The notes below the pieces were generated by a model. That model was not told the DNA's origin. It ran no database searches and saw only the letters and a program-made list of their open reading frames with translations. Positions 1 through 16,234 of a stretch of 64,000 nucleotides of DNA are shown here, one piece after another. How positions within the stretch are numbered: the stretch's first letter is position 1; every line of letters begins with the position of its first letter. The DNA is from Polaribacter marinus. Its GTDB lineage: Bacteria > Bacteroidota > Bacteroidia > Flavobacteriales > Flavobacteriaceae. The stretch lies in NCBI RefSeq assembly GCF_022662535.1, contig NZ_JAKQYM010000010.1:1-64000 (forward strand), written 5' to 3'. The position numbers and the translations under genes were made by a program.

Positions 1-53
1 AAACCAACAAAGAAAATGATTTTATAAAATAGTTTTTTTTGTTTTTTCGTCAT
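1..53 (-). CDS. Start of a truncated cassette gene
   Basis: An ATG at 51-53 on the minus strand opens a reading frame that runs off the left edge of the window. The 17 visible codons read MTKKQKKLFYKIIFFVG, a lysine-rich start followed by a hydrophobic run, as in a signal peptide or first membrane segment. It starts 21 bases from the GTT core of site S1, matching the layout of the other cassette genes. The visible part is too short to assign a function or be sure it is real. Confidence 0.4.
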   Translation of the reverse strand, partial: MTKKQKKLFYKIIFFVG

Positions 54-67
54 TTTGGGTAAATGTT

Positions 68-200
68 TGCCAACGGTCTCGTATAACCGTCAGTTACGGG
101 TTTAAAGTTAATAATTTTCGGTTAAGAACTGACGTTAACAATTCCGAGTGGATTCGGACGTAGTCGAATCCGCCGTAATTGCGGTTATACATTGTTGTAG
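68..200. repeat. attC-like site S1
   Basis: The left core is TGCCAAC (68-74) and the right core GTTGTAG (194-200). The central hairpin differs from the other sites: GGATTCG pairs with CGAATCC, so only the overall architecture is shared. The right core with its flank, GTTGTAGCAC at 194-203, is exactly complementary to the left flank and core of S2 at 791-800. Confidence 0.65.
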
Positions 201-204
201 CACG

Positions 205-768
205 TTATTTTTTGTTTTTATACAGTTCAATCGCTTTTAAATAATTCATTCCGCCACTCTTTGTTTGGTCGTTCAAAAACCCATTCAATTCAGGTTGATT
301 TTCCGCAATCCAATTTACAAGTTCATCTCTGTTTTTAACAAATTCCTCAACGTTAAATGATGCAGAAGTCCTATTGATATTTTTTATTTTATTGCCCTCA
401 AATTGTATGATTTCGTCTGTGATAATAGGTTCGTGATGAAGAAATGAAATTCGCTTGTCCGTTTTTGAAATTTTAGCTTTTATAATTCCATTTTCTTTTT
501 CGATTTTGAGTATTTTGTAAGTCGGTTGGAATACAGAGTCCCATTTTACCCATTCAGCATATTCATTTTCGCTATATTTCTGTTCAAATCCGTCGTCAAT
601 GGTCGTAAATCTCTCCGTGATTAATTCAGTCGTTTTTGAAGGATTTGAATTGTCAATTGCAATGTAGAATTTTTCAGCAATTTCCAATTCATCAATTTCC
701 TTTTCAGAATTTTTGCAGGAAATAATTCCGATTGTTATGAGTAATAAAAGAACTGTGAATTTATTCAT
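205..768 (-). CDS. Predicted lipoprotein, unknown function (cassette gene)
   Basis: This 187-residue protein begins with a lipoprotein signal: a hydrophobic stretch followed by GIISC, whose Cys18 would be lipidated. The rest is soluble, rich in Glu, Lys and Ile, and has no motif I can name. The N-terminal half after the signal (residues 28-60) resembles the start of small NTF2/SnoaL-like ligand-binding folds, but this is only an impression. It is the only gene in its cassette (194-800). It starts 22 bases inside the S2 boundary and stops right beside the right core of S1, so nearly the whole unit is coding. Expression may depend on an upstream promoter or one within S2. Confidence 0.7.
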   Translation of the reverse strand: MNKFTVLLLLITIGIISCKNSEKEIDELEIAEKFYIAIDNSNPSKTTELITERFTTIDDGFEQKYSENEYAEWVKWDSVFQPTYKILKIEKENGIIKAKISKTDKRISFLHHEPIITDEIIQFEGNKIKNINRTSASFNVEEFVKNRDELVNWIAENQPELNGFLNDQTKSGGMNYLKAIELYKNKK

Positions 769-793
769 TTTACGTTTGGTTGGTCATAATGTG

Positions 794-925
794 CTACAAC
801 GTTGTTGTATAAGATTAGTTGCGTGTTTTAAGGACTAAAGTTAGCAAATAAATCACAGATAGAAAGTCCGCGAGGACTTTCGTAAACTGGCTAAAACCAG
901 CAATTAATTTTATACGGTGTTAGCA
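794..925. repeat. attC-like site S2
   Basis: The left core is CTACAAC (794-800) and the right core GTTAGCA (919-925). The central hairpin pairs GAAAGTCC (862-869) with GGACTTTC (874-881) around the loop GCGA. The outer arms GTATAAGATTAGTTGC and GCAATTAATTTTATAC also pair, with three more bases between core and arm on the left. The flanked right core GTTAGCATTA (919-928) is exactly complementary to 2299-2308. Confidence 0.75.
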
Positions 926-1971
926 TTAGTTATTTCTCCGATTATTCTTTCAATTTGTTCTGCAAGATTTCCGATTACAATATCTTCCGTTTCAAATAAT
1001 AATGGTCTTAAACCTATAAAAATTCCTCTGTTATTTGGATAAGGAACTAAAGTCAGATTTTGTCTTACACTCAAACTTTCAATTGATTGTGTAAGTTTTT
1101 CGTTTAGAAACCAACCTTTTTCAGTTACTCCACCAATTGACAACCAAAATGGCGTGTCTGCACATTTTTCCCACAAGTCTAATTTAAGAGCGAAATTCAT
1201 TCCTAATTCGGAAGTTGCGAAATATCTGTGATAACCATATCTCTGTGGTGTTTTTACTAATCCTTTTGTTGAAATTCCTTTATTTCTGTTTTTTAATTCA
1301 TCCACAACTTTATCTACAATTTCGTAATACGAATTTATGTTTTTTGGGATTTTAGGCGATAAATCTTCGTCTGTTATTGGCTGAAAAGAATTTTGGTCAA
1401 TTGAATCACAAAGTCCAATAATTTGGTTTAAATCCGAAATTAAATTTATGTTGTTTGTTTGCTCAATTTTAGATTTGATTGAGTTCAAAACTTCGTTCCA
1501 ACTTTTAATAAATATGTGTTTGTTCGAGGATTTTATTAATATTTTTAAATTCTCCGAGTCAATTTCTAAATCTTGATTTTCCTCTAAAATTCGAGTTTTT
1601 ACTTCTTCAAAAACTGTTCTTGTTCTTAAAGTTGGAACAAGAAAAATTAAAACAGTATTATCTTTCAGCCTTTTTAAATATCCGTTTGGTTGATTGTGAG
1701 TTAATGAAGCCCAAAATTTTGCTTCTATAAGCAAAACTTCTTTTCCTGTTTCATCTTTTCCACTAATATCAGGTCTTTCCAAATCCTTTCCAACGTTTTG
1801 AGTTTGAAACGACAAATCTGAAAATGTCAAATTAGTATTTGCTTTTACTATTTGATTAATAACTTTTCTGCTTTCTAAAGATTGTTTTAAAATATATACT
1901 AAACCTTCTGACGCAATATCTTCTTGCGAACCTCTAATTCTGTTGTAAAATTGACCTAATAATGATTGCAT
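910..1971 (-). CDS. PD-(D/E)XK nuclease-like protein (cassette gene)
   Basis: This 353-residue protein has a likely PD-(D/E)XK nuclease core. RPDI supplies Asp68, followed about 15 residues later by LIEAK (Glu83-Ala-Lys85). That spacing is typical of restriction-endonuclease-fold proteins that bind a metal through Asp and Glu. A longer C-terminal domain is unassigned. I place the start at the ATG at 1971, two bases after the stop of the upstream gene; a longer frame to 2034 would overlap that gene. The stop codon lies inside S2, so the last residues (NANTV) are encoded by the recombination site. It forms a two-gene unit with the next gene and is a candidate defence or mobile-element function, which is inferred. 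Confidence 0.6.
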   Translation of the reverse strand: MQSLLGQFYNRIRGSQEDIASEGLVYILKQSLESRKVINQIVKANTNLTFSDLSFQTQNVGKDLERPDISGKDETGKEVLLIEAKFWASLTHNQPNGYLKRLKDNTVLIFLVPTLRTRTVFEEVKTRILEENQDLEIDSENLKILIKSSNKHIFIKSWNEVLNSIKSKIEQTNNINLISDLNQIIGLCDSIDQNSFQPITDEDLSPKIPKNINSYYEIVDKVVDELKNRNKGISTKGLVKTPQRYGYHRYFATSELGMNFALKLDLWEKCADTPFWLSIGGVTEKGWFLNEKLTQSIESLSVRQNLTLVPYPNNRGIFIGLRPLLFETEDIVIGNLAEQIERIIGEITNANTV

Positions 1972-1972
1972 A

Positions 1973-2284
1973 TTATTCTTTAAAATTTTCTGGTAATCTT
2001 CCGTTTTTTTCTCTTTCGTGATAAGTGTCCGCAATTACGCAACGATTTATTATATTTTCCATATGCCAATAAGTAAAACCATTATGCTCAAAATATATTT
2101 GTTTCGTTTTATAAAAATAACTTTCGTATCCAAAATTGTCAATGTGATTTGCTAATTCTAAATACAAGTCATTATCCACTCTTTCTTGAACAATATATTC
2201 GTGAGGCCAAGTTTTGGCATAAGTTTTCGCAAAAATCCATTGTTGATTTTCTATAAATTCCTTCAGTTTGTTGTTTAGTTCCAA
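1973..2284 (-). CDS. Small conserved hypothetical protein (cassette gene)
   Basis: This 103-residue soluble protein is rich in aromatic residues and histidine, for example KTWPHEYIVQ near residue 25 and GFTYWHME near residue 68. Similar small proteins occur widely in bacterial accessory regions, but I know of no assigned function. It has no signal peptide or membrane segment. It is the first gene of the two-gene cassette 919-2308 and ends one base before the start of the nuclease-like gene. The tight coupling suggests a functional pair, perhaps nuclease plus modulator. Confidence 0.65.
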   Translation of the reverse strand: MELNNKLKEFIENQQWIFAKTYAKTWPHEYIVQERVDNDLYLELANHIDNFGYESYFYKTKQIYFEHNGFTYWHMENIINRCVIADTYHEREKNGRLPENFKE

Positions 2285-2301
2285 AGTTCGTTTTTAATTA
2301 A

Positions 2302-2436
2302 TGCTAACGTTGTTGTGTTATGAAAAGTTGCGATTAAAATGAACGGCTATTTTCCGAAGGAAAATAGAAGTTTATATAAATGCGACTAATTTTTATTAAG
2401 CTAAAATTAAGCAATTTTTTTTACACGGTGTTGCCT
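2302..2436. repeat. attC-like site S3
   Basis: The left core is TGCTAAC (2302-2308) and the right core GTTGCCT (2430-2436). The central hairpin is CTATTTTCC (2347-2355) with GGAAAATAG (2359-2367) around GAA. Its sequence differs from most other sites but it pairs perfectly. The outer arms include GTTGCGA and GCAATT near the ends. Confidence 0.7.
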
Positions 2437-2880
2437 AAAGTTGTTTTTTGTTTTTCCTATTTTGGTTATTATTTTCGAGATTTAGCGTTCGAGTGACAAT
2501 TCCGCCAATATTTTTAATTCCGCAATATTGGGAATTCAACAATTGAGTGTTTTTTCATGTTTTGACTTACGAGATCTTTCCTAATTTTTAAATTTAGCGT
2601 TCGAGTGACAATTCCGCCAAGATTTTCATTCCGCAATAATTGGAAATTCAACATTTGAGTGGTTTCTTTTATTCTTAAAAAACGAGATTTCTCCGCCTTT
2701 TTAAGTTTTAAGTTTGAGTAAAAATTCCACAAACTTTGTTTTAAGAATCTATATATTTTCAACCTTTTTTCATTTTTATTAAAAACTAAATTTTTGACTC
2801 GCGAGAGAGTGTCTAACATTTTAAACTTCAAGAGTTTTATTGTTTTTTTTCCAACGGTTTGAGTGGTTCTGGACAATTTT
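2437..2880. other. Cassette without a credible gene, with internal tandem repeats
   Basis: The unit between S3 and S4 has no convincing coding sequence. It contains a direct repeat of period 112: the same 28-base segment, starting TTTAGCGTTCGAGTGAC, occurs at 2481-2508 and 2593-2620. A shared tail follows each copy (TTCCGCAATA, then AATTCAAC and TTGAGTG). A more degraded third copy follows from about 2691. One minus-strand frame of 139 codons crosses the region, but it is very Lys/Arg/Leu-rich, runs into S4 and simply translates the repeats. The unit may carry an RNA, a decayed gene or sequence acquired without a gene. Its ends still match: GTTGCC at 2430-2435 and GGCAAC at 2882-2887. Confidence 0.5.
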
Positions 2881-3011
2881 TGGCAACGGTTTTGTATATG
2901 ATACGTTGCGTGGTTTAGCACGTAATTTAGCAAATAAAAACCAGATAGAAAATCCGCGAGGATTTTCGTAAGTAGGCTAGTACTAGCAATGGATTATATA
3001 CGTTGTTGGCA
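2881..3011. repeat. attC-like site S4
   Basis: The left core is TGGCAAC (2881-2887) and the right core GTTGGCA (3005-3011). The central hairpin is of the GAAAATCC / GGATTTTC type around GCGA. This is the shortest site, at 131 bp. The flanked right core GTTGGCAAAT (3005-3014) matches 3543-3552 at 9 of 10 complementary positions. Confidence 0.75.
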
Positions 3012-3021
3012 AATCGTATTT

Positions 3022-3540
3022 TTATTCAGATTTAGTTTTTTCTTTATACTCAGAATATTTATCAGTCCATTTCGCAAAAATAATTATTCCGTCAAATTTA
3101 TTTTCAGAGTTTGTGTAGACTCGAATTTCGGCAATATTTTCTGTTTTTGAAAAGGTTGCTTTATATCGAAAAAATTTATTTCCAGTTTTGTTAGTTAGAA
3201 TTTCCGATATTTTTATTTCTAATAATTTTCCATAAGCGGAATTGTAACTATCACAAGTTTCGATAACCTTACTTTTATCAGTTTTCCACAATTTTACTAA
3301 TCTTTCAGTAGCATTTTCCGTTGTGAGTTCAGGGAATTCATAAGTGTCACAATTCGTAAATGTTTGATATGCAAAATCGTATGCTGATTTCTTTTCAATT
3401 TCAGCAACTGTGTCAATCGCTAATTTTGTCTTTTTTGATTCATCAGGTTTTAATTCAGATTCAGTTTTTGCTTTTTGAGCATAACAACTAAAAGTTAAAC
3501 TAAAAACCAGAGTTAATAATATGTAATTGCGTTTTGTCAT
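3022..3540 (-). CDS. Secreted hypothetical protein (cassette gene)
   Basis: This 172-residue protein has a signal peptide ending in FSCYAQ. The likely cleavage after Gln follows the Flavobacteriaceae style, although the Cys could also act as a lipobox. The mature part is hydrophilic with four further cysteine or aromatic clusters and no motif I recognise. The gene starts only two bases from the boundary match of S5, so the sequence from GTT core to ATG is about 12 bases. That leaves almost no room for a private promoter and implies transcription from upstream. It is the only gene of cassette 3005-3552. Confidence 0.7.
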   Translation of the reverse strand: MTKRNYILLTLVFSLTFSCYAQKAKTESELKPDESKKTKLAIDTVAEIEKKSAYDFAYQTFTNCDTYEFPELTTENATERLVKLWKTDKSKVIETCDSYNSAYGKLLEIKISEILTNKTGNKFFRYKATFSKTENIAEIRVYTNSENKFDGIIIFAKWTDKYSEYKEKTKSE

Positions 3541-3545
3541 ATGTT

Positions 3546-3677
3546 TGCCAACGTGTTTGTATATGGTTTGTTGCGTGGTTAAGCAACTAAGTTAACAAAT
3601 AAAAACCGAATAGAAAATCCGCGAGGATTTTCGTAAGTAGACTAGAACCAAGCAATAAATTATATACAGTGTTGGCA
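3546..3677. repeat. attC-like site S5
   Basis: The left core is TGCCAAC (3546-3552) and the right core GTTGGCA (3671-3677). The central hairpin pairs GAAAATCC (3613-3620) with GGATTTTC (3625-3632). The flanked right core GTTGGCAGTA (3671-3680) is exactly complementary to 4443-4452. Confidence 0.75.
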
Positions 3678-3762
3678 GTAGTATTTGTTTTACTAAATGT
3701 AAAGTATGTTTGTCAAATAGTTTTATTTGTTTTACATTTGTTTAAACTTAAATTCGAATATT

Positions 3763-4239
3763 ATGAAAGCAAATTATTTATTTCCCAATAAGTTCAAAAG
3801 AATAGGTTGGTTTATTCTTATTCCATCCGCAATTATTGGTTTGATAACACTTATTTATGAATATGAGCCAAGTTTTTTAGATTTCAATGTTCCTGCTATT
3901 TTTGTAGATGACTTTTTTACGGATAAAAAATTATTCGGAATGGTTAAGAATAATATATTGAATGAAATTTTCGGGGTTTTAATTATTATCAGTTCCTTAT
4001 TTGTTGCTTTTTCAAAAGAGAATTCAGAAGATGAATATATATCAAAAATTAGATTAGAGTCATTGGTTTGGGCTGTTTATGTTAATTATGCAATCCTTTT
4101 GTTTTCGTTTTTGTTCATTTTCGATTTTTCTTTTTTATGGGTAATGATATTCAATATGTTCACAGTCTTGTTATTCTTCATAATTAGATTTAACTGGCAA
4201 ATTTCTAAACTTAAAAAATCAGCTAATTATGAAGAATAG
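3763..4239 (+). CDS. Four-helix membrane protein paired with Xre regulator (cassette gene)
   Basis: This 158-residue protein has about four transmembrane segments: near residues 11-29, 65-83, and two in the stretch 98-145. I use the ATG at 3763; a TTG twelve codons upstream would begin inside less plausible sequence. It overlaps the following Xre-type regulator by 11 bases. The pairing of a small membrane protein with a short Xre regulator is common in Bacteroidetes and Firmicutes. The membrane protein may sense or counteract a signal for the regulator, which is inferred. This is the only cassette transcribed rightward, opposite to all others. Confidence 0.7.
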   Translation: MKANYLFPNKFKRIGWFILIPSAIIGLITLIYEYEPSFLDFNVPAIFVDDFFTDKKLFGMVKNNILNEIFGVLIIISSLFVAFSKENSEDEYISKIRLESLVWAVYVNYAILLFSFLFIFDFSFLWVMIFNMFTVLLFFIIRFNWQISKLKKSANYEE

Positions 4240-4435
4240 TATTAAAGTCGAAAGAGCAAAAAAGAATATTACTCAAGCTGAATTAGCTAAATTGGCAAAA
4301 GTTAGTAGACAAACAATTAATGCAATGGAATTAGGTAAATATGTTCCATCAACTGTTTTGGCATTGAGATTAGCTCAAATTTTTGAAGTTGAAATAAGCG
4401 AAATCTTTACTCTGGAAGATTCTGATTGGGTTTAG
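4229..4435 (+). CDS. Xre-family small transcriptional regulator (cassette gene)
   Basis: This 68-residue protein is almost entirely one Xre-type helix-turn-helix. AELAKLAKVSRQTINAME is the HTH unit and is followed by GKYVPSTVLALRLAQIFEV, which matches the standard HTH_3 fold. Very short regulators of this kind resemble YozG-like proteins. It overlaps the 3' end of the membrane-protein gene, so the two are translationally coupled. It probably regulates its own unit. The cassette has room (3680-3763) for its own promoter, unlike the minus-strand cassettes with short leaders. Confidence 0.85.
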   Translation: MKNSIKVERAKKNITQAELAKLAKVSRQTINAMELGKYVPSTVLALRLAQIFEVEISEIFTLEDSDWV

Positions 4436-4445
4436 GTCATATTAC

Positions 4446-4579
4446 TGCCAACGTTGTTGTATAAGTAAAGTTGCGGTTTTGTCAGCGAGGAATTTCCGAA
4501 GGAAATTCAGAAGTTGGCAAAAATGCAACTGCCTTTAATTTAGCACTAATTTAGCAATTTTTTTTATACGGTGTTGTAA
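4446..4579. repeat. attC-like site S6
   Basis: The left core is TGCCAAC (4446-4452) and the right core GTTGTAA (4573-4579). The central hairpin is GAATTTCC (4490-4497) with GGAAATTC (4501-4508) around GAA. The flanked right core GTTGTAAACA (4573-4582) is exactly complementary to 4972-4981. Confidence 0.75.
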
Positions 4580-4602
4580 ACAGTGCTTTTTCAGTTCTAA
4601 TT

Positions 4603-4950
4603 TTAATTCAGACTTCCAACTATAAAATTCAAGAGTTTATACGCTCCAATTCCTAATCCAGTTCCAATTAACATCCAGTAAATTCTTTGTTTTTTGTCCG
4701 CTTGAATTATTTGTTTTTCAATTGTCTTTCCATTTTTTAATAATTCTATCTCAATTTCTCTCTTGTCAAACTGTTTGTATTTAGTTTTCAAGATAAAATT
4801 TTCAGAATTCAGATTAAGTTTGTGCTTAATTCCAGAGAATGAGAATTTTTTAGAAATCATTTTTCCGTTCAATAAAACACTTTCAATTCCGAATACAGAA
4901 TTCAGAAATTCTATTTTATGGTTTTCAATAATAAATTCAGCGTATTTCAT
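4603..4950 (-). CDS. Small hypothetical protein with C-terminal membrane segment (cassette gene)
   Basis: This 115-residue protein has a beta-rich N-terminal part (residues 1-80) and one likely C-terminal transmembrane segment (WMLIGTGLGIGAYKLLNFIV, about residues 92-111). It has no signal peptide, so the N-terminal part is expected in the cytoplasm with a tail anchor. No family is recognised. It is the sole gene of cassette 4573-4981. A plus-strand frame over the same bases is a shadow. Confidence 0.65.
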   Translation of the reverse strand: MKYAEFIIENHKIEFLNSVFGIESVLLNGKMISKKFSFSGIKHKLNLNSENFILKTKYKQFDKREIEIELLKNGKTIEKQIIQADKKQRIYWMLIGTGLGIGAYKLLNFIVGSLN

Positions 4951-4974
4951 TTTCGTTCAGTTTTTTTGCATTGT

Positions 4975-5108
4975 TTACAACGTTGTTGTATATGGTTTGT
5001 TGCGTGTTTTAAGCGACTAACTTAGTAAATAATTACTGACCAAGAAAGTCCGCGAGGACTTTCGTAAGTAGGCAATAAGCCAGCAATAAATTATATACGG
5101 TGTTAGCA
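4975..5108. repeat. attC-like site S7
   Basis: The left core is TTACAAC (4975-4981) and the right core GTTAGCA (5102-5108). The central hairpin pairs GAAAGTCC (5044-5051) with GGACTTTC (5056-5063). The flanked right core GTTAGCAAAT (5102-5111) is exactly complementary to 5794-5803. Confidence 0.75.
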
Positions 5109-5115
5109 AATGTTT

Positions 5116-5736
5116 TTATTCCCACTTTACTGTTAAATTCTTAAAAACAATGCTTATGTCATCAGATTTATAGCCAAGTCTTGAATAGAAATCAATCATC
5201 AAAGACTTTATTACAGGAGTTCCTTCTATAATTTGTTCTAATTCAACTGAAAATTTTGTTGGAATGTCTTTATATAATTTATCAATCCTTTTTTCATTTC
5301 CAACCAATACTTTGTAAGAATTAACTCCATTTCCTTTTGGGTCAAATATTTTCGCTTTTTGACCTTGAATAGACCTCAAAACTCCATTATTTACAAAAAT
5401 TCCCTCAACCATAATTTTTCCAGTATTTGAATTTCCAATAACAGAGTTAATTTTAAAATCGAGGTCTTTGTATTTCGTAGAAATTTTTGAATTAAATAAA
5501 TTCAAGGTTTCTTTATAATATTTGATTTCCTCTTTCAATTTTAAAATCTCATTTTCTTTGATATCTACTATTGTTTTTTGTTTTTCATTTTCATTTTTTA
5601 AGTTTTCAATTTGAACAGTCAGTTCAGTGTTTTGTTTTAATAATTCTGATTTAGTTTTTTCAGAAGTTGATTGTTGTCCAAATGAGATTAGCGATGAAAA
5701 CACTAATGATGTAAAAAGTAATTTTGTAAGATTCAT
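5116..5736 (-). CDS. Secreted coiled-coil protein, unknown function (cassette gene)
   Basis: This 206-residue protein has a signal peptide (residues 1-20, ending SFGQ). A coiled-coil stretch follows at about residues 25-80 (LLKQNTELTVQIENLKNEN and similar heptads). A C-terminal domain of about 115 residues is predicted to be beta-rich. It probably acts in the periplasm or on the outer membrane. I do not recognise the family. It is alone in cassette 5102-5803, with a 57-base leader between its start and the boundary match. Confidence 0.7.
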   Translation of the reverse strand: MNLTKLLFTSLVFSSLISFGQQSTSEKTKSELLKQNTELTVQIENLKNENEKQKTIVDIKENEILKLKEEIKYYKETLNLFNSKISTKYKDLDFKINSVIGNSNTGKIMVEGIFVNNGVLRSIQGQKAKIFDPKGNGVNSYKVLVGNEKRIDKLYKDIPTKFSVELEQIIEGTPVIKSLMIDFYSRLGYKSDDISIVFKNLTVKWE

Positions 5737-5796
5737 TTTATTTATTTAATTGTTAATAGTTTTTCTTTTTCGGGTTTTATTTCGGTCTCTAATATT

Positions 5797-5930
5797 TGCT
5801 AACGTATTTGTATAAGCTTTGTTGCGATGATTTAGCAGTAAAGTTACTAAATAATTACCGACCAAGAAAGTCCGGGAGGACTTTCGCAAGTAAGCAAAAA
5901 GCCAGCAATAAAGTTTATACGGTGTTGTAG
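5797..5930. repeat. attC-like site S8
   Basis: The left core is TGCTAAC (5797-5803) and the right core GTTGTAG (5924-5930). The central hairpin pairs GAAAGTCC with GGACTTTC around GGGA. The flanked right core GTTGTAGCAC (5924-5933) is exactly complementary to 6631-6640. It is identical to the one at S1 (194-203). Confidence 0.75.
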
Positions 5931-5941
5931 CACGTTTTTTT

Positions 5942-6601
5942 TCATTCTAAATGTTTTCTTATAATTGACGAAGGGTCAGTTTTTATATTTGTCCAATCCG
6001 CAATACTTGGATGAGTTGCTATAATTACTTTCTCATTATTTTCGTTTTTAAAAACTTGAGTTTTCCAATTTCGATTATTATTCTCAATAAATTCGTCAAT
6101 TAAAATATTTGCTTTCAATTTCTTTTTCACAAAATTTCCAGGCGTTTTTCCGAAACACAGAATAGTTTTAATACTCAAATCGTTAATTACTCTTTCGTGG
6201 AAATTCCAGCATTTTTCAGCGTATTCATTGTATAATTCTTTTATATCTTTTTCTCTCGAAGAACGAACAAATACGACATTACTTGCTGGAACTTCGTGTG
6301 CAGATAATTCCAGCTTTTTCAATAAGTGTAATATTCTTGGTTGTAAACCTTGTGTTCCGGGAACTTGTCCTCTCCAACTTTCATCTTTATATGCTGACCA
6401 ATTCGATGATTTTTCCGAAAGAACTTTTTCTGTATGCCATTTCAAAGTTTCGGTTTTTTGTCTTTCAATATTTCCTCCGGGATTTATTCCTAATAAATAT
6501 AATTTCTTTTTTCCAATGAATGCATTTCGTCCAGAATAAAATACAGAACCCGAAATTTCTCGTAAGTCATTTGGAATTATTTCAGCAAATTTTTCAATCA
6601 T
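5942..6601 (-). CDS. Uracil-DNA glycosylase-fold protein (cassette gene)
   Basis: This 219-residue protein resembles the uracil-DNA glycosylase superfamily. GINPGG (residues 38-43) matches the first active-site loop (GxxPG type), and HPSIADW (197-203) matches the late HPS loop that contacts the DNA backbone. The intervening region contains CFGKTPG (149-155), a short strand-loop found in the same fold. No iron-sulfur cysteine set typical of family 4 is visible, so the activity and substrate are uncertain. Such proteins repair or process deaminated bases. A role tied to phage or single-stranded cassette DNA is speculation. It is the sole gene of cassette 5924-6640. Confidence 0.6.
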   Translation of the reverse strand: MIEKFAEIIPNDLREISGSVFYSGRNAFIGKKKLYLLGINPGGNIERQKTETLKWHTEKVLSEKSSNWSAYKDESWRGQVPGTQGLQPRILHLLKKLELSAHEVPASNVVFVRSSREKDIKELYNEYAEKCWNFHERVINDLSIKTILCFGKTPGNFVKKKLKANILIDEFIENNNRNWKTQVFKNENNEKVIIATHPSIADWTNIKTDPSSIIRKHLE

Positions 6602-6633
6602 TTATAATGGTTTTGAGTTTTTTCGGCAATGTG

Positions 6634-6765
6634 CTACAACGGTTTTGTGTATGATTAGTGGCGTGTTCCACGCAACTAATTTAGCAAATAAAAACCGAAT
6701 AGAAAATCCGCGAGGATTTTCGTAAGTAGGCGAGAACTAGCCATTAATTATACACGTTGTTGGCA
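6634..6765. repeat. attC-like site S9
   Basis: The left core is CTACAAC (6634-6640) and the right core GTTGGCA (6759-6765). The central hairpin is of the GAAAATCC / GGATTTTC type around GCGA. The flanked right core GTTGGCATTA (6759-6768) is exactly complementary to 7854-7863. Confidence 0.75.
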
Positions 6766-7844
6766 TTAGTACTTATTTCAGTTAGTTTATTTACATCTTT
6801 TAATATTCTCTCTAATAAAATACTTAATAAAGTATCATTATTTAATTTGATAGAACGATATATCATACTTTTCCCAAATCGGTTATAATTTTTCCCGTTT
6901 TTAGGATATACTTCATTTTCGTTTACAAAGTCAAATAGAAACCATTTTTTGTCAAGTTGTAACTTATCTGCAATTTCAATTTTCTCTTTTTCCTTTTCTC
7001 CCCAAGCATATAAATAGTGATTGTATCTACCTCCATCGAGCATAATTCCGTAAATAATTTCATCTTGGTCTGAAAAGTCGATATTAATAACTCCTTTTCC
7101 ATTAACTAGAGTCGTGCTAATAACTACTTTGTTTCTATTCGTTTCGTGGGAGTACCTTTTTCCAATTTTAACTTCTTTACTGGTTAAATTAGATTTTAAA
7201 TATTTCTCTATTTCTTTAACTAATTCAGCGTAGTTATATTTGATGTATAAATCGTGAAGTCTTATTTCTTTAAAAAGTGTGTAATCAGAGCCGTAAAAGT
7301 CATAATAAGAATCTTCGATGTTTAAACTTAATGGTTTTAATAAATCTGAAAGATTGTTTATAAAGTAGATGTAATCTTGAATTAATTTTTTATGATAATC
7401 ATCGGTAATTCTATCTATTAAATTAGATAATAAAATTCCTAAATCTCTATATGTTAATAATTCCCAACCTAAATCTTTTAACTCAAAACTTGGCTTTATG
7501 ATTGTAAGTAAAACAAAAATATTATTAGAATTACTTTTTCCTTTGTAATCTATTAGTTGTTGTCTGTCGGGAACACTTTTAACTTTGTTTTCAACGATTA
7601 TTTTGATTTCGTTAAATTCTATTGTTAAATCCAAATTTCTAGTTTCTCGTTGAACTGAAATTATTTTTTTATCTGGAAAATTAAATTTCTCTGCAAAATG
7701 ATTAGCAAGAATTTCTCCAAAACTTATTTGATAATTTTCACAAATCCAAGCAATGAAATTACTATGAAATAATTCTTTTGAACTTAATGACAAGTTAAAT
7801 AAAGGTGATTTTTTTAATTCGGTAATTATTTCAGGTACAGTCAT
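6744..7844 (-). CDS. PDDEXK_4-like nuclease-fold protein (cassette gene)
   Basis: This 366-residue protein fits the PD-(D/E)XK superfamily group often annotated PDDEXK_4. An ELFHSNFIAW motif near residues 24-33 is characteristic. The catalytic-type residues are Asp72 in LDLTIEF and Glu85-Asn-Lys87 in IIVENK. The ATG at 7844 is chosen, nine bases from the boundary match; the frame continues upstream only through S10 sequence. The stop lies inside S9, so the last residues (NANNVYN) come from site sequence, as in the other nuclease-like cassette gene. It could be an antiphage or restriction-like nuclease; the target is unknown. Confidence 0.7.
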   Translation of the reverse strand: MTVPEIITELKKSPLFNLSLSSKELFHSNFIAWICENYQISFGEILANHFAEKFNFPDKKIISVQRETRNLDLTIEFNEIKIIVENKVKSVPDRQQLIDYKGKSNSNNIFVLLTIIKPSFELKDLGWELLTYRDLGILLSNLIDRITDDYHKKLIQDYIYFINNLSDLLKPLSLNIEDSYYDFYGSDYTLFKEIRLHDLYIKYNYAELVKEIEKYLKSNLTSKEVKIGKRYSHETNRNKVVISTTLVNGKGVINIDFSDQDEIIYGIMLDGGRYNHYLYAWGEKEKEKIEIADKLQLDKKWFLFDFVNENEVYPKNGKNYNRFGKSMIYRSIKLNNDTLLSILLERILKDVNKLTEISTNANNVYN

Positions 7845-7856
7845 TTTTCGTATTAA

Positions 7857-7988
7857 TGCCAACGGTCGGGTATATGGTTTGTTGCGTGTTTTAAGCACCT
7901 AATTTAGCAAATAAAAACCGAATATAAAATCCGCAAGGATTTTCGTAAGTAGGCTATAATTAGCAATAAATTATATACTTTGTTGGCT
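7857..7988. repeat. attC-like site S10
   Basis: The left core is TGCCAAC (7857-7863) and the right core GTTGGCT (7982-7988). The central hairpin is AAAATCC / GGATTTT around GCAA. The flanked right core GTTGGCTGTA (7982-7991) is exactly complementary to 8590-8599. Confidence 0.75.
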
Positions 7989-8576
7989 GTAGTAATTTGT
8001 ACAGTTTTCCTTCGTTAATAATTCGCCATTATATTCAACTTTTTCAAATTCAGCATCATCAAAACGTACTCCTGTGATATCTGCATTATTCAAATTCACA
8101 TTGTCCAAAATTGTGTCATAAAAACAGGCTCCTTCTAAATTAGCATTTTCAAAATTCACATTCTTAAATTTTGTTTCTCTAAAATTCACTCCACTTAAAT
8201 CAGAGTTACTAAAATCACAATCTGTAATTATTGATTCCTTGATTTCCAATGGACTTAAAAAAGAATTTTTAAAATTACAGTTTTTTAAAATTACATTATT
8301 CATTTCTGATACACTCCAATATGAATATTCAAACTTTTTTAAAAAATTCATATTTTCAAAATTTCCATTTTCAGATATTATATTACTAAAATCACAATTA
8401 TTTTCAATAACAACATTTTTTAAGTTACAATTCGATAAATTCGATCTGTTAAAATCAATTTTTATTAAACTTAAATTATTTAAGTCAATATTTTTCAAGT
8501 CTAAACCTCTGAAGTTAATTCTTTGATTTCTTGGTTTAGCAATTATTCTTATTATTTCTTTTCTGTTTAAATCCAT
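7971..8576 (-). CDS. Pentapeptide-repeat protein (cassette gene)
   Basis: This 201-residue protein is built mostly of degenerate pentapeptide repeats of the A(N/D)LXX type, for example NLSLI, NFENANLEGACF and NVNLNNADITGVRF. They cover about residues 25-185. Such repeats fold as a right-handed quadrilateral beta-helix. Some members mimic DNA and protect gyrase, such as Qnr, which is itself spread by integron-associated elements; others have no known role. No signal peptide is seen, so it is cytoplasmic. It is alone in cassette 7982-8599 and its C-terminus reaches into S10. Confidence 0.85.
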   Translation of the reverse strand: MDLNRKEIIRIIAKPRNQRINFRGLDLKNIDLNNLSLIKIDFNRSNLSNCNLKNVVIENNCDFSNIISENGNFENMNFLKKFEYSYWSVSEMNNVILKNCNFKNSFLSPLEIKESIITDCDFSNSDLSGVNFRETKFKNVNFENANLEGACFYDTILDNVNLNNADITGVRFDDAEFEKVEYNGELLTKENCTNYYSQQSI

Positions 8577-8592
8577 TTCAGTTTTTTATTAC

Positions 8593-8725
8593 AGCCAACG
8601 TTGTTGTATAAGCTTTGTTGCGTTGTTTAAGCAGTTAATTTAGTAAATAAAACACGAACGGAGAAATTCCGGAGGAATTTCCCAAGTGAGCCAAAACCAG
8701 CAATAAAATTTATACGGTGTTGTGT
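8593..8725. repeat. attC-like site S11
   Basis: The left core is AGCCAAC (8593-8599) and the right core GTTGTGT (8719-8725). The central hairpin pairs GAAATTCC (8663-8670) with GGAATTTC (8674-8681) around GGA. The flanked right core GTTGTGTGCA (8719-8728) is exactly complementary to 9547-9556. Confidence 0.75.
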
Positions 8726-9159
8726 GCAGTTTTTTTATTATTCAGATTTTTTATTTTCAATATTCTATTTATTAAAATTCCTAAATATGAACTTAAAATA
8801 ATTATTAACGATAATATTATTTGCCAATAATCAGATTCGAAATGCTCAAATAATATATCAAATTCAGAAATTTGTGTAACACTTAATGTTATTACTAAAA
8901 TTAAAAAAAATAATAAAGATTTTAAATTCCAACTTTTTGATTTTGGTTTGTAACCAATAATAATTTCTTTTGTATAAATAATTAAAACTCCAAAAGTTAA
9001 TATACTTGGAATAAGTGAATTCCAAATATTATTTTTTCCTGCGATAATATTCCCAAATGATAAATTCAAAAAACTTACCCAACTAAAGACGTAAATCGTA
9101 AATAATACAAGTAAGACCCAAATTAGTTTCAATATTATTTCCAGACTTTTGATTTTCAT
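8710..9159 (-). CDS. Four-helix membrane protein, unknown (cassette gene)
   Basis: This 149-residue protein has four predicted membrane helices, near residues 8-30, 44-64, 80-98 and 112-133. It ends in a lysine/asparagine-rich tail whose final residues are encoded in S11. It has no family motif I recognise. It is the second gene of a two-gene cassette, 10 bases downstream of the 114-residue gene, so the two are probably co-transcribed. Confidence 0.65.
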   Translation of the reverse strand: MKIKSLEIILKLIWVLLVLFTIYVFSWVSFLNLSFGNIIAGKNNIWNSLIPSILTFGVLIIYTKEIIIGYKPKSKSWNLKSLLFFLILVITLSVTQISEFDILFEHFESDYWQIILSLIIILSSYLGILINRILKIKNLNNKKTAHNTV

Positions 9160-9169
9160 ATTTAAACTA

Positions 9170-9514
9170 TTATTTTTTTAGTCTAAATTGATTCATTCCG
9201 ATTTCAAATACTAATTTATTATTAAGCTCAATTTGTTTTCCTTTTTTGTCGTAAAATTCCGCAAATATTTTGTTTTTATTAATTATTTCTAAAACAACTC
9301 CTTTTTGTCCTGATTTTAATCTTTCATTAAGGCTTTTAGTCAGTTCAATTTTTTTATAGAGAAATTTTTTCTCCAATATTTTAATTGGCTCAATTTCCTT
9401 TTTAGTTCCAGTAAATAATTCGCCCATTTTATTAAAACCTTTTCCTAAAAATCTAAAAAACTTATAAATAATTCCTTCGAGAATTATTTCGGTAAAAATT
9501 TCAAAAATTATCAT
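9170..9514 (-). CDS. Small hypothetical protein (cassette gene)
   Basis: This 114-residue protein has an amphipathic or weakly hydrophobic N-terminus (residues 1-30) followed by a basic linker. Its compact C-terminal part contains GQKGVVLEI and KIFAEFYDKKGKQIEL, which look like a small beta-barrel of the kind seen in proteins that bind a partner or nucleic acid. No named family is recognised. It is the first gene of the cassette 8719-9556 and shares it with the membrane protein downstream. Association with the membrane through the N-terminus is plausible. Confidence 0.6.
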   Translation of the reverse strand: MIIFEIFTEIILEGIIYKFFRFLGKGFNKMGELFTGTKKEIEPIKILEKKFLYKKIELTKSLNERLKSGQKGVVLEIINKNKIFAEFYDKKGKQIELNNKLVFEIGMNQFRLKK

Positions 9515-9549
9515 TTCAATTCAGTTTTTTGGGTCAATTCGGTAATTGC

Positions 9550-9681
9550 ACACAACGTGTTTGTATAAGATTAGTTGCGTAGGTTAAGTAATGAATTTAA
9601 TAAATAAAAACTGAATAAAAAGAGTGCAAGTATTTTCCCAAATAAGCTAAAAATAGCAATTAATTTTATACGGTGTTGGCA
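9550..9681. repeat. attC-like site S12
   Basis: The left core is ACACAAC (9550-9556) and the right core GTTGGCA (9675-9681). The outer arms are well kept (GTATAAGATTAGTTGC and GCAATTAATTTTATAC), but the central hairpin is decayed. The flanked right core GTTGGCAAC (9675-9683) is complementary to 16389-16397 beside the recombinase, 6.7 kb away. Confidence 0.7.
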
Positions 9682-9699
9682 ACTGGGCATTATTTTAAT

Positions 9700-9877
9700 A
9701 TTTCAAACTATTCAATTATTAATTCAGATTGCTATATTTATAATTTAGATTAAGATATTCGTAATTCAGACTATTTAATTACTAAAATAGATTCATAAAA
9801 TATACTTTCAGGTTATTAGTTTTGTAATTTAGGTTGAAAGAATATAAAATTAGATTGATATATTTATAAATTGGTTT
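9700..9877. repeat. Array of 10-bp motifs at exact 21-bp spacing
   Basis: The motif AATTYAGRYT, with variants, starts at 9700, 9721, 9742, 9763, 9784, 9805, 9826 and 9847, each exactly 21 bases apart. A poor ninth copy is at 9868. The 11-base spacers are not conserved. A 21-bp period equals two helical turns, so all copies face the same side of the DNA. The array fills the space between the stop of the 239-residue gene and S12. It could be a protein-binding array or the remnant of a heptapeptide-coding repeat; the minus-strand frame shows NLNYKYS-like units broken by stops. Confidence 0.75.
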
Positions 9878-9889
9878 GTTAGTTTTATA

Positions 9890-10609
9890 TTAACTTGAAG
9901 TAAATTTTATTTTTGAGATATTAGAATATTCAGGCGAGGTTGCTCCATATATGCTTTTTACATATTTTTTAACATTTTGAGCAATTGTATATAGACCTGT
10001 ACCACTTTTGTATAAGATGTTATTCCTTTCTATTAATTTGGTGTTTAATACAGCTTCTGTAATATCTACATTTTTTGTACTTTCTACTAAAGTTGTATGA
10101 TAAGCTATTAAATTCACTAATTTTAATTCTTCTAAATTTGGGTTGTATGTTGGAATGGTAGCTAATAATTGTAATATTTTAGAAAAATTATCTGCTAATT
10201 GAGTGTAAGACTGACGAGAAGTAGAAACAGTTTTGCTTTCTTCTCCTGTTTCTTCATCTACTTCCTTCTTTTTCTTTTTACTGCCTTGTATTAAGTTATT
10301 CAATGATTTTGCTTGTGCTAAAACACCTTCTGAAAGCCCTAATATTTCTAATTGATTGATGATTCTTGTAGAAGTAGATTTTAAATTCAAATATGCTTGT
10401 TGTCTTGTATGTATCGCATTTTTATTCGCATTTCTTTTTTCTTCTACTTCTGTAACTGCATTTAGAGAATTAATATATAAAGTATTTAGATTTACAATTT
10501 TTAAATTATCGACTGGTGGATTGTAGGCAGTATATACTGTTACTTGTTCAATTAGTTTTTGAAGATCAGCTACATTTTTAGCATTTCCTGTTTCATATTG
10601 CTTGCTCAT
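9890..10609 (-). CDS. Helical hypothetical protein with internal duplication
   Basis: This 239-residue protein has no signal peptide or membrane segment and is predicted to be mostly helical. It contains two related halves. One begins TAYNPPVDNLKIVNLNTLY (from about residue 28) and the other IPTYNPNLEELKLVNLIAY (from about residue 145). They are separated by a charged linker rich in Lys and Glu (about residues 112-128). Proteins with such repeated YNP units are frequent in Bacteroidetes genomes, but I know no function. It lies just downstream of the exporter gene on the same strand, with a 105-base gap, so its link to the bacteriocin locus is uncertain. Confidence 0.7.
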   Translation of the reverse strand: MSKQYETGNAKNVADLQKLIEQVTVYTAYNPPVDNLKIVNLNTLYINSLNAVTEVEEKRNANKNAIHTRQQAYLNLKSTSTRIINQLEILGLSEGVLAQAKSLNNLIQGSKKKKKEVDEETGEESKTVSTSRQSYTQLADNFSKILQLLATIPTYNPNLEELKLVNLIAYHTTLVESTKNVDITEAVLNTKLIERNNILYKSGTGLYTIAQNVKKYVKSIYGATSPEYSNISKIKFTSS

Positions 10610-10713
10610 TTTTTTAATTTTTAAAAGTTATTATTGTAAATATAACGAATTCTTTTAAAAGTATATTGTGTTTTTGACTGACAATGAGTATGTAAGGCAT
10701 TAATTGTTTTAAA

Positions 10714-12888
10714 TTAAATAATAAGTTCTTTCCAAAAATCGCTATAAAAATTAGTAGTTTCCATTAATTTTTTGTGATTACCAAAATTAGAAATTATTCC
10801 GTTTTCTAATACATAAATTGTGTCTGCAATTTGAGGTAAAGAATGTAATCTATGAGATATGAAAATGATAGTGATTTCAGATTTTAGTTTCTTTAATAAG
10901 TTTAAAACAAACTTTTCTGTTTTCCTATCCATTGCTGATGTAAATTCATCTAAAAGTACTAATTGAGGTTTCTTATACAAAACTCTCATTAAAGCAATGA
11001 TTTGTTTTTGTCCACCTGATAAATTAATACCTTCTTCTCCTAAAATTGTAGCAAAGCCTTGAGGTAAACTGTTTATAAATGCAGTAAATCCGTATTCCTC
11101 ACAAAAAACCTGAATGTTTTCAGGTGTATCTTTTTTGCCTAATAAAATATTTGTGATTACATTACCACTAAATATGGTGATGTCTTGTGGGATGATACCA
11201 ATAATATTACGCCAATCTTCTGTATTTATATCTGGAAGATTAAATTGATTATTAACGATTATCGTTCCATTTTCAAAAGGATAAAATTTTTGTAATACTT
11301 GACCTAATGTACTTTTACCACTGCCACTTTCTCCAACAATTGCGATACATTCATTTTGATTTACAGATATATTTATATTTTTAAAGAGTTCTTTTCTACC
11401 TGCAAAACGAAAAGAAAGGTTTTTAATTTCTAAAGAATTAAATTTTGATAGTGATATGTTTCCTTTATTTTCTTCTTCTATGGAAGTAAATTCATACATT
11501 CTGTTAAATGCTACTTTGGCTTCGTTAATTGGTATTGTAATTAATGCTAAACTTGCAACAGAGGGTAGTAGAGAACCTGCAATACCTAAAATTGCCATTA
11601 ACTCTCCTAATTGCATAACTTCATTATATACTTGTGTAGAAGTGTATATTAAAATACTAATTAAGAATAGTACACTAAAAATACCTGAAAAAATAGATAA
11701 GCGTACATTTATTTTGCCAAGATTAAATACCTTTTCTTGAAAGTTACCATAAATAAATTGATTGATTTTTTGGAATATAGATTGTCTATTGTTATTTTTA
11801 ATAGTTGCAATACCTTGTATTGATGTTATATAATTACTTTCATTAAAAGCATATCCTTGCATCATTTCTTTCTGTGCATTGATTATTTTTTTATTAAAAC
11901 TATAAATTAATAAAAAATAAAAAGGTAAACTAATAGAAGCTATTAAACCTGTTTGCCAAGAATAAAAAAATAAAAAACCTAAAGAAACAATAGTGACTAA
12001 TATGTTAATAGCTGTATTACCGATAATTTGACTAATAACTCTTTGGACACGTTGTGTATCGTTTAATCTTGCAACTAATTCGCCAATTTTACGAGTATCG
12101 AAAAATGGTTTAGGTAAATGTAAAAGGGAAGTGTAAAAACTATCTATAATTCTATTATTAAAGTCTTTGGATTGTGTGATTAAGAAAAAGTCTCTTAAAG
12201 CAGTAAACAATACTCTAATTAATAAAAGAAATGCAACTAAAATAATACCTGTAATTAATTTAGTAAAATCTTTTGACGGTAAAATATCGTCGATTAGTTT
12301 TTGTGAAAATATTGCCATTGCCATACCTAAAATAGCAATACCTAAACCTAAAATGATGCTAAAACTAATTAATTTTGAATCTTCTTTAACTAATTTTATA
12401 AACCATTTTTTTTTGTTATTGGTTTGTGTTTTAGATTTTACAAAATTATTATTTGGTGTTAATGTCAAGCAAGTTTTAGATTTCCAAATTTTTTCTAATT
12501 CTTCTTTTGTTAATTCAATAATACCTTTTGCAGGGTCTCCAATAATAAATTTATTATTTTCATAACCATAACAAATAACATAATGTTGTAAATGTTCTTC
12601 AATTACTACGTGAAGTATTAATGGTTCTTTATGGTCTATGATTGCTTGAATGTCTGCCTCATTACCTTGTGATGTAAAACCTAATTGGTTTGACGCTTGA
12701 TACAGACCTAATAAGGTTGTACCTTGTTTTGTTGTACCACTTAATTCTCTTAACTTTTCTAATGAATTATTACCCTCATAATATTGAATGATTGATAATA
12801 AACAGGCAACACCACAGTCTGATTGATCTTGTTGAAGTTTAAAAGTTTGTTGTATTTGTTTTCGAGTTGGTAAGATTGGTTTAGTCAT
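10714..12888 (-). CDS. C39 peptidase-containing ABC exporter (PCAT)
   Basis: This 724-residue bacteriocin exporter has three parts. Residues 1-145 form a C39 cysteine peptidase domain with Gln19, Cys25 (DCGVACL), His102 and Asp118 all present. Residues about 165-450 form the membrane domain. Residues about 475-724 form the ATPase, with GESGSGKST, LSGGQKQ, LLDEFTSA and FISHR. Such proteins cut the leader peptide at a double-glycine-type site and export the mature peptide across the inner membrane. The gene overlaps the upstream thioredoxin-like gene by eight bases. No HlyD-type adaptor gene is nearby, although Gram-negative PCATs usually need one, so a distant adaptor is likely. Confidence 0.93.
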   Translation of the reverse strand: MTKPILPTRKQIQQTFKLQQDQSDCGVACLLSIIQYYEGNNSLEKLRELSGTTKQGTTLLGLYQASNQLGFTSQGNEADIQAIIDHKEPLILHVVIEEHLQHYVICYGYENNKFIIGDPAKGIIELTKEELEKIWKSKTCLTLTPNNNFVKSKTQTNNKKKWFIKLVKEDSKLISFSIILGLGIAILGMAMAIFSQKLIDDILPSKDFTKLITGIILVAFLLLIRVLFTALRDFFLITQSKDFNNRIIDSFYTSLLHLPKPFFDTRKIGELVARLNDTQRVQRVISQIIGNTAINILVTIVSLGFLFFYSWQTGLIASISLPFYFLLIYSFNKKIINAQKEMMQGYAFNESNYITSIQGIATIKNNNRQSIFQKINQFIYGNFQEKVFNLGKINVRLSIFSGIFSVLFLISILIYTSTQVYNEVMQLGELMAILGIAGSLLPSVASLALITIPINEAKVAFNRMYEFTSIEEENKGNISLSKFNSLEIKNLSFRFAGRKELFKNINISVNQNECIAIVGESGSGKSTLGQVLQKFYPFENGTIIVNNQFNLPDINTEDWRNIIGIIPQDITIFSGNVITNILLGKKDTPENIQVFCEEYGFTAFINSLPQGFATILGEEGINLSGGQKQIIALMRVLYKKPQLVLLDEFTSAMDRKTEKFVLNLLKKLKSEITIIFISHRLHSLPQIADTIYVLENGIISNFGNHKKLMETTNFYSDFWKELII

Positions 12889-13408
12889 TTTGATATAATG
12901 CTCTTAAAATTCCGTTTGCGTTTAATTGCCCTTTATGTTTTTTAACTAGTTCGTTTTTTTGATTGTAAATTAAAATATACGGAATAGAATTTGCATTAAA
13001 TTGAATAGAAAAATCTCCTTTTTTGTCTTCTAAAAAAACAATGTTTTCTTGATTATTTAATTTGTATAATTCTGCAAACTTTTTAATGGCTTCTGTTTCC
13101 TCGAAAGAAACAAAAATAAACTGAACGTTTTTAAATTTCTCTAAATTTTGACTAATACTTTCTGCTTCGTGATGGCAAAAATCGCAATCGCTATTGAAGT
13201 AAATGAAGATTGTAGAAGTGTTTTGTTTTAAATCTGCATTTGAAAAAGAAATGTTTTCTAATGTTTTTAATTCAAACTTTGGAATGGTTTGTAATTGTTT
13301 TGAAATTTGATTTTTTTCTTTTGCTTTAATAGTAATGTTATAGCCTAAAAAGGATAGTAAGCTAATTATCGTGATAATTATTATGATAAGTATTTTCTTT
13401 TTGTTCAT
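12881..13408 (-). CDS. Membrane-anchored thioredoxin-like protein
   Basis: This 175-residue protein has one N-terminal membrane segment (about residues 6-24) and a periplasmic thioredoxin/TlpA-like domain. The redox motif is Cys75-Asp-Phe-Cys78, within FNSDCDFCHHE. A cis-proline-type SIPYIL lies near residue 151. Proteins of this type reduce or form disulfides outside the inner membrane. The bacteriocin precursor in this locus has exactly two cysteines in its core, so a role in setting its disulfide is a reasonable inference. It overlaps the exporter gene and follows the 210-residue membrane-protein gene closely, indicating one operon. Confidence 0.8.
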   Translation of the reverse strand: MNKKKILIIIIITIISLLSFLGYNITIKAKEKNQISKQLQTIPKFELKTLENISFSNADLKQNTSTIFIYFNSDCDFCHHEAESISQNLEKFKNVQFIFVSFEETEAIKKFAELYKLNNQENIVFLEDKKGDFSIQFNANSIPYILIYNQKNELVKKHKGQLNANGILRALYQND

Positions 13409-13410
13409 AT

Positions 13411-15936: not shown

Positions 15937-15965
15937 TTTTCTAAATTATTAGGAAGTATAGATTA

Positions 15966-16003: not shown

Positions 16004-16013
16004 CATTTTATAG

Positions 16014-16214: not shown

Positions 16215-16234
16215 AATAAAATAATTTTAGTTAT

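Follow-up and report, generated by a model that had tools for sequence, protein, structure and literature searches.

An attC-like cassette array beside a tyrosine recombinase without the IntI insertion in Polaribacter marinus, probably the attI-proximal part of a large chromosomal integron

Positions 1-64,000 of contig NZ_JAKQYM010000010.1 from Polaribacter marinus, a flavobacterium of the phylum Bacteroidota, form the stretch analysed here, hereafter referred to as the window. Near its beginning can be found, in this order, twelve attC-like sites separating eleven units (68-9681), one longer unit (9682-16394), an attI-like box (16395-16411) and, at 16431-17597 on the minus strand, the gene of an integron-like integrase, a tyrosine recombinase of about 388 amino acids (aa) recognized by its open reading frame (ORF), Pfam match, catalytic residues and structure model. 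A first, sequence-only reading had taken the sites for integron attC sites and the units for gene cassettes, and this is supported by the complementarity of cassette ends, the insertion point at attI, the linked integrase, the polarity of duplicated cassettes and a cassette found in two species. As far as sequence tests go, what defines an integron functionally is found here, namely a recombinase together with attI and an array, ends bearing the signature of a circle, insertion at G|TT and the corresponding orientation. Very probably, the region is the portion of a large chromosomal integron that lies next to attI, and the recombinase encoded at 16431-17597 would act on its attI and folded sites. 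In the following, G000 designates the genome of P. marinus itself, other G numbers the other genomes sampled, and L numbers loci.

The attC-like sites lie at 68-200, 794-925, 2302-2436, 2881-3011, 3546-3677, 4446-4579, 4975-5108, 5797-5930, 6634-6765, 7857-7988, 8593-8725 and 9550-9681, the last being the attC of the attI-proximal cassette. All are given on the plus strand, the strand listed being the stably folding one, i.e., the "bottom" strand relative to the cassette genes. Each is backed by reading of the sequence, predicted fold and covariance-model match, and all twelve have the length of 131-135 bp and the form nnnnAAC...GTTnnnn that had been ascribed to them. Regarding the structure, pairing outer arms around a central hairpin had been proposed; the hairpin is confirmed as a covarying helix of 23 pairs, with an asymmetric 3-nt bulge and compensatory changes at 11 pairs among the twelve sites, whereas the outermost arms mostly do not pair within a site, since complementarity of the outer 4 nt is perfect inside one of the 12 sites only and, instead, across 10 of the 11 cassettes of the window (by eye). 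The covariance model which the sequence-only reading had suggested was built from the twelve sites and run on the 3.39-Mb draft genome of P. marinus, giving 145 matches at E ≤ 1e-8 on 23 contigs (150 candidates were scored, 149 rows had E ≤ 10, and cuts at contig ends may split one site into two counts). Over 149 sites of this genome, double-sided changes occur at 17 of the 23 helix pairs and 96.3% of the cells are paired, a value that none of 500 shuffles reaches and for which the best slid control gives 57.4%, in an alignment that was fitted to the covariance model and leans for that reason towards the modelled structure.

The strand carrying the fold is strongly marked. The plus strand folds better than its complement in all twelve window sites, and the site strand has the more stable predicted fold in 366 of 372 sites from seven genomes. 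Near-invariant G·T pairs are found at two helix positions (141 of 142 and 142 of 145 sequences in P. marinus), and the difference in fold between the strands arises because these become A·C mismatches on the other strand. The canonical R box has the consensus GTTRRRY / RYYYAAC, of which only GTTR is conserved at the ends of the present sites, the later positions not fitting RRY in a composition count. In canonical attC, extrahelical bases in the L'' arm set the choice of strand, according to the excerpt available of PMC2727003; in contrast, the inner arm of the consensus helix has no single extrahelical base here, and the strand bias would come from the G·T pairs and the 3-nt bulge found instead. 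A Rfam scan of window positions 1-18000 gave no attC-like family over threshold, its single row lying below its gathering score, and no tRNA was found within the window.

Just 3' of the integrase gene lies the attI-like box TATATAACGAG|TT (16395-16411, minus strand), with insertion at G|TT, identified by this position and by the match with the end of the first unit. Of 13 integrase copies in 12 genomes of the genus, 12 have the sequence TATAACNNGTT immediately after the stop codon (by eye), while the thirteenth, in G017, has a one-base variant further downstream. This attI-like sequence is conserved up to G|TT, beyond which it is different in each genome. Eight copies (seven genomes) with the first site in the same locus were tested, and in all of them what follows the GTT of attI matches the far end of the first unit: six are perfect over GTT plus 7 positions, two (G009 and P. 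marinus) have one mismatch, and a shared A/G difference is found at position 8. Because of this match, the 6.7-kb unit at 9682-16394, which has no site inside and the ends of a cassette (one mismatch), can be considered the first cassette. The array consequently extends beyond the span of 68-9681 first given for it: one more unit extends from 9682 to the box at 16395, and at the other side the array is cut at base 1, as the window begins there with the start of the contig.

In an integron, the start of a cassette is complementary to the start of its attC, since both meet in the circle. Comparison of the 4 nt after GTT with the 4 nt before the next AAC shows these cassette ends to be perfectly complementary in 304 of 340 neighbouring site pairs from seven genomes, to be compared with 41 of 340 for the two ends of one same site and with 40.8 on average, 59 at most, in 1000 within-genome shuffles. 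Over 318 units of 60-2500 bp, the match extends for 6-7 nt, followed by a nearly fixed T·G position, about three positions above chance and then randomness; at the wobble position, T is found on one side in 318 of 318 units and G on the other in 281 of 318 (88%). From this profile, each cassette has a stem of its own, about 14 bp long and including a single, almost invariant G·T pair. Regarding canonical cassettes, an automatic GTTRRRY search in nine IntI loci gave nothing, and two units in the IntI-bearing Calditrichia locus L204, read by eye and making a very small control, match only 5-6 nt beyond GTT, in contrast to the approximately 14 bp with G·T wobble observed here.

Duplicated cassettes indicate what moves. 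Among five copies in G009 (10 pairs), the interior is 100% identical and the 3' site likewise (1.00), while the 5' site has a mean identity of 0.63; the same polarity, with the 3' site copied along, is seen in both P. marinus pairs at ≥90% identity and in the only such pair of G016. G013 has dozens of near-identical units, and of its 650 pairs 439 agree better in the 3' site and 51 in the 5' site, while the rest favour neither. As recent duplicates copy the 3' and not the 5' site, the moving unit consists of the gene with its 3' site, cut at the GTT of the preceding site. Of 353 units, 229 have an ORF that reaches 50 aa, the longest one reading in the direction of the cassette in 216 of them, and the other 124 have no such ORF. 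For the 204 units whose forward ORF reaches about 80 aa, the median distance is 30 nt from GTT to ATG and 9 nt from the stop to the site; the short leaders fit promoters located outside the cassettes, and the genes are possibly expressed from the integrase's own transcript.

It could be asked at this point whether the sites are static dispersed repeats, e.g., repetitive extragenic palindromic (REP)- or terminator-like palindromes, which happen to stand between genes. Such repeats would also be numerous, palindromic and close to the 3' ends of genes, as the median of 9 nt illustrates. However, neither the complementarity of cassette ends nor the polarity of duplicates nor the match at attI fits with them, and on these grounds the explanation was rejected as extremely improbable; the little cassette content that congeners have in common, detailed below, speaks against it too.

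The integron reading is extended by the comparison of genomes. In a search of 39 genomes (P. marinus and relatives, with up to 86 candidates per genome), sites at E ≤ 0.01 are found in 27, namely 23 of the 24 of the genus and 4 of the 15 others. Complete genomes hold long arrays, G013 having more than 100 sites on one strand in the 120 kb fetched, and more than 100 sites are present in at least two genomes, P. marinus and G013. Many P. marinus contigs (e.g., C1, C13, C14, C18, and C28) have their first base about 63-70 bp ahead of a site or their last within one, which is taken as an effect of short-read assembly. In G013 (loci L133-L138), much of the array is taken up by dozens of cassettes without ORF, AT-rich and almost identical, which measure about 300-490 bp and form families of 29, 17, 12, 9, and 7 copies.

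A cassette of 1159 bp is 98.1% identical between P. marinus (L113:4512-5670) and G016 (L132:160-1318), although a core gene has 75% identity between these two genomes, within the 71-79% obtained for the congeners in which it matched over its full length. The cassettes next to the 1159-bp one do not belong to the shared set. Fixed, syntenic repeats with no gain or loss of the genes between them, named at the outset as the outcome contrary to mobile cassettes, are not what is seen, only 5 of 88 cassette ORFs of P. marinus (≥80 aa) being represented by a homologue among the sampled arrays of six congeners. No neighbouring cassette pair has both homologues in one other genome, so that cassette order is not comparable. 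Past transfer or duplication of single cassettes is evident at the level of DNA sequence.

Regarding the integrase, it consists of a N-terminal domain of about 80 aa, a SAM-like domain and a catalytic domain with the residues R-K-H-R-H-Y. It scores 220.6 bits with NF040815 (XerA), barely over the cut-off of 220, and 212.6 bits with TIGR02249 (integron integrase), under the cut-off of 265. Between two anchors, 27 residues are found in the integrase and 59-60 in IntI (12 rows), which means that the IntI insertion of about 32 residues is missing; among 99 rows of a tree, this length is 26-29 in 68, 34-36 in 19, mostly Xer-like, and 59-60 in the 12 IntI. A structure model was obtained with a mean predicted local distance difference test (pLDDT) score of 87.8. 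Its nearest solved structure is the XerA 4a8e (Z 22.5, root mean square deviation (rmsd) 9.1, 255 aligned), followed by the XerA 5hxy (Z 19.9, rmsd 14.7, 247 aligned) and the IntI 2a3v (Z 19.0, rmsd 3.8, 255 aligned), which are tied.

These data bear on whether the enzyme is an integron integrase by descent. The system may be an ordinary integron in ancestry, the integrase being a divergent sister of IntI which lost the insertion or never gained it, with shared origin and mechanism; this comes close to being an even matter. In its favour, attI, attC polarity and insertion at G|TT are as in integrons, and 2a3v is among the nearest structures; moreover, transcription of intI toward attI is known from Treponema, as the excerpt of PMC3607928 has it. 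An approximately unbiased (AU) test does not reject a branch with the window clade and IntI on one side (p 0.656), the constrained tree scoring better, by 12 log units, than a quick tree without constraint. In that quick tree, however, the insertion-bearing IntI rows form one clade (support of 96 in the Shimodaira-Hasegawa-like approximate likelihood ratio test, SH-aLRT) apart from a Bacteroidota clade of 28 that includes the window integrase (SH-aLRT 100). Likewise, in a sequence-profile search of solved chains, two archaeal XerA (216.7 and 212 bits) outscore IntI (192.4 bits), and the non-conservation of GTTRRRY argues in the same direction. Another account, which we regard as somewhat more probable than not, is an integron class of Bacteroidota's own, distinct from every integron with IntI, with an integrase devoid of the insertion and bearing a N-terminal domain that binds DNA structure, a strand read from G·T pairs, private 14-bp stems and arrays of more than 100 cassettes that would have been overlooked since searches use IntI and canonical attC. 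In its boldest form, this class would have arisen independently from XerA-like recombinases.

The N-terminal 80 residues are modelled as a confident small domain (pLDDT 91), for which no firm match was found among solved folds, an absence that is not evidence for a new fold. Foldseek gives weak matches to YciH (E 0.042), the HARP domain of SMARCAL1 (E 0.047) and the damage-recognition domain of XPB (E 0.065). In VIA-align, weak matches are obtained with XPB 2fz4 and CASTOR1, which are level at Z 7.0 (rmsd 1.9 with 60 aligned and rmsd 3.3 with 72 aligned, respectively), and with an eIF1 row (6.8). That this domain binds DNA structure is a guess. A SOS (LexA) box before integron integrases is common, although not universal. 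Within 300 nt upstream of nine integrase copies, neither GGA-N5-TCC nor CTAA-N5-TTAG was found, these LexA-type motifs being taken from the part of PMC8565304 at hand.

Long integrases are found near arrays in congeners, e.g., in G001 (twice), G009, G010, G013, G016, G020, and G021; in G001, the two copies lie on one chromosome (C1:2233248 and C1:2343133), each with its own attI box and nearby sites. In P. marinus, 12 matches to the Phage_integrase family are found, so other such genes are present. It can be hypothesized that the cassettes are real and moved by another enzyme, such as the host Xer or an integrase encoded elsewhere, the linked recombinase being a passenger. Some congeners indeed keep sites without a long intact integrase. 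In contrast, attI abuts a window-type integrase gene in the 12 of 13 copies mentioned above, and genomes with a long integrase have more sites (median 38 in 15 genomes, to be compared with 8 in the 9 without; Mann-Whitney p 0.0007, a test that ignores kinship, with counts of at most 86), which makes the hypothesis decidedly unlikely. The classing of long integrases is our own, and G005 and G018, with one stop each, as well as G014, cut by a contig end, were taken as intact. Among phage records, 62 matches were obtained, none covering 80%, and in a viral collection with 576 encoded relatives, none of the 80 loci listed is recorded as matching the first 57 residues of the query.

Several observations weigh against the region being a large chromosomal integron served by this recombinase. 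The perfect end match is missing in 36 of the 340 units, and P. marinus pairs below 90% identity are mixed, their 3' sites being 0.54-0.95 identical and one pair favouring the 5' site. The 98.1% identical cassettes of P. marinus and G016 differ in the body of the 3' attC (identity 0.59, the background being 0.69 within P. marinus), and over seven cross-species cassette pairs the identity of the 3' sites has a mean of 0.67 (0.57-0.80) against the same background. Since the genes of these pairs are not clearly accompanied by their 3' sites, simple cassette transfer is insufficient, and the bodies of the sites may be replaced or homogenised within each host. The integrase also lacks an insertion which the excerpt of PMC8138268 calls essential for integron function, yet describes as not fully conserved in its subgroup. 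Finally, G015 has 23 sites while no long integrase was detected in it, which indicates that arrays persist without integrase.

If the region works as an integron, the following mechanism can be proposed. The recombinase would bind attI as a double strand, just downstream of its own gene, and would recognize, as a single-stranded substrate, the hairpin formed by one strand of the attC-like site of about 133 nt. What tells the strands apart would be the G·T pairs, as opposed to A·C, together with the asymmetric 3-nt bulge, rather than the extrahelical bases of canonical sites, and the N-terminal domain may help to bind the folded site. Strand exchange would take place at G|TT, so circular cassettes, each made of a gene and its 3' attC, would enter at attI in the orientation that points their genes away from the integrase, and cassettes could also be excised or reshuffled. 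If the integrase does work without the IntI insertion, a new account of the recognition of folded sites and of their strand is needed.

With regards to known systems, the Vibrio-type sedentary chromosomal integrons (IntI TIGR02249) share with the present locus an attI-proximal integrase gene, an array of attC cassettes and insertion at G|TT, as well as cassettes made of an ORF and a 3' attC, mostly in one orientation, ORF-less cassettes and folding of the bottom strand. Unlike theirs, the window integrase has no insertion in the catalytic domain, stays under the TIGR02249 cut-off and has an extra N-terminal domain. Compared with the canonical IntI/attC class, the locus agrees in the predicted folding of the bottom strand and departs from it in the IntI sequence test, GTTRRRY and the extrahelical bases. 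XerA resolves chromosome dimers at dif. The XerA-type recombinases (NF040815; PDB 4a8e and 5hxy) are the closest solved chains by profile, with the family cut-off just passed, whereas the window system has a cassette array, attI and an added N-terminal domain. In Treponema-type integrons, the integrase gene likewise reads toward attI, located just 3' of it, and has the same direction as the cassette genes; the enzyme there is treated as IntI in the excerpt of PMC3607928, while the IntI insertion is absent here.

Integrons in Bacteroidota as such are not new, as the phylum is listed among integron carriers in the portion available of PMC8618304 and the Bacteroidetes/Chlorobi group in that of PMC2426708. 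One complete integron is named for Bacteroidetes, that of Salinibacter ruber M1 (IntegronFinder 2.0, PMC9024848, in the section available). No description of flavobacterial integrons of this type was found in a search of titles and abstract starts of open-licence PubMed Central (PMC) papers, without preprints, which makes it a weak negative.

The sites are not restricted to the genus. In a sample of at least 80 loci with related integrases, sites at E ≤ 0.01 (40 matches in total) are present in 14 of the 80 listed. Among the matches listed, the site-bearing loci include Seonamhaeicola, Winogradskyella, Algibacter, Zunongwangia, Flavobacterium, Algoriphagus, Aquiflexum and metagenome-assembled genomes of Bacteroidales and Sphingobacteriales, and the closest named integrases are from Flavobacteriaceae. 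In 13 of these 14 loci, again among the matches listed, the sites come after the 3' end of the integrase gene and are on the other strand; the exception is L177, where sites at 84-216 and 1558-1691 precede the integrase and share its strand. On the Chryseobacterium plasmid NZ_CP041688.1 (L229), the integrase is followed by four site matches below E 0.003, which suggests that the system can be mobile; a group II intron gene and transposases are among the downstream genes. Of 28 units in seven loci, six site-bearing ones and this plasmid, 23 match in at least 6 of 7 end positions, and two of the five misses are ill-defined plasmid sites. A search of 296 genomes sampled across the phylum, made with a strict filter and 11 candidates per genome, found at least one site at 1e-6 in 40 genomes and in 27 of 139 genera. 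In a phylum where integrons were reported to be very rare, they may be a major system of gene exchange.

Some of these loci have further particularities. In L168, L165 and L179 (Winogradskyella, S0862 and Seonamhaeicola), a second integrase clade, apart from the window clade in the quick tree, stands beside very similar sites. In L186, L187 and L193, the last of which carries three sites, the related integrases lie in open frames of 676-720 residues between stops and perhaps have a much longer N-terminal part.

The cassettes of the window had been described as eleven single-gene units with unrelated genes. Eleven units are indeed present, but one has no convincing gene and three have two genes. 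Unless mentioned otherwise, the genes are on the minus strand and rest on ORF and Pfam data. The cassette at 205-768 encodes a protein of 187 aa without Pfam family, and that at 910-2284 has two genes, of about 353 aa (910-1971) and 103 aa (1973-2284), with no family over cut-off. The unit without convincing gene (2437-2880) has related copies in P. marinus at L118:1189-1630 (95%) and L110:4153-4596 (88%). A gene of 172 aa without Pfam family follows at 3022-3540, and then a two-gene cassette against the direction of the array (3727-4435, plus strand), encoding a protein of 170 aa, membrane-like by eye, and a HTH_3 repressor of 68 aa. The gene of 115 aa at 4603-4950, recognized as an ORF, has a homologous cassette in G016 (80% at the DNA level), and the one at 5116-5736 encodes 206 aa. 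The cassette at 5942-6601 encodes a protein of 219 aa with weak, below cut-off similarity to uracil-DNA glycosylases, and that at 6744-7844 a member of the PD-(D/E)XK nuclease superfamily (366 aa). The last two were assigned by ORF and family search, namely a protein of 201 aa with pentapeptide repeats (7971-8576) and a pair of proteins of 149 and 114 aa without family (8710-9514). When 10 proteins encoded by the window's cassettes were searched against defence families, the outcome was limited to weak PDC matches, all of the nuclease cassette.

The attI-proximal unit at 9682-16394 is of another size, with eight genes on the minus strand. Starting from attI, a small peptide gene (16014-16214, from its ORF) precedes four genes at 13411-15936, one of which encodes an ABC ATPase and the others proteins that are membrane-like by eye, a thioredoxin-like gene (12881-13408) and a gene for a C39-peptidase ABC exporter (10714-12888), these assignments being based on ORF and Pfam, and finally the ORF of a 239-aa protein (9890-10609). 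By inference from these genes, the unit would be a bacteriocin-like operon, and the whole operon of eight genes appears to be one cassette, which would make cassettes able to carry far more than single genes. By the same measure of matching ends, the first unit of G016 is 6.4 kb long.

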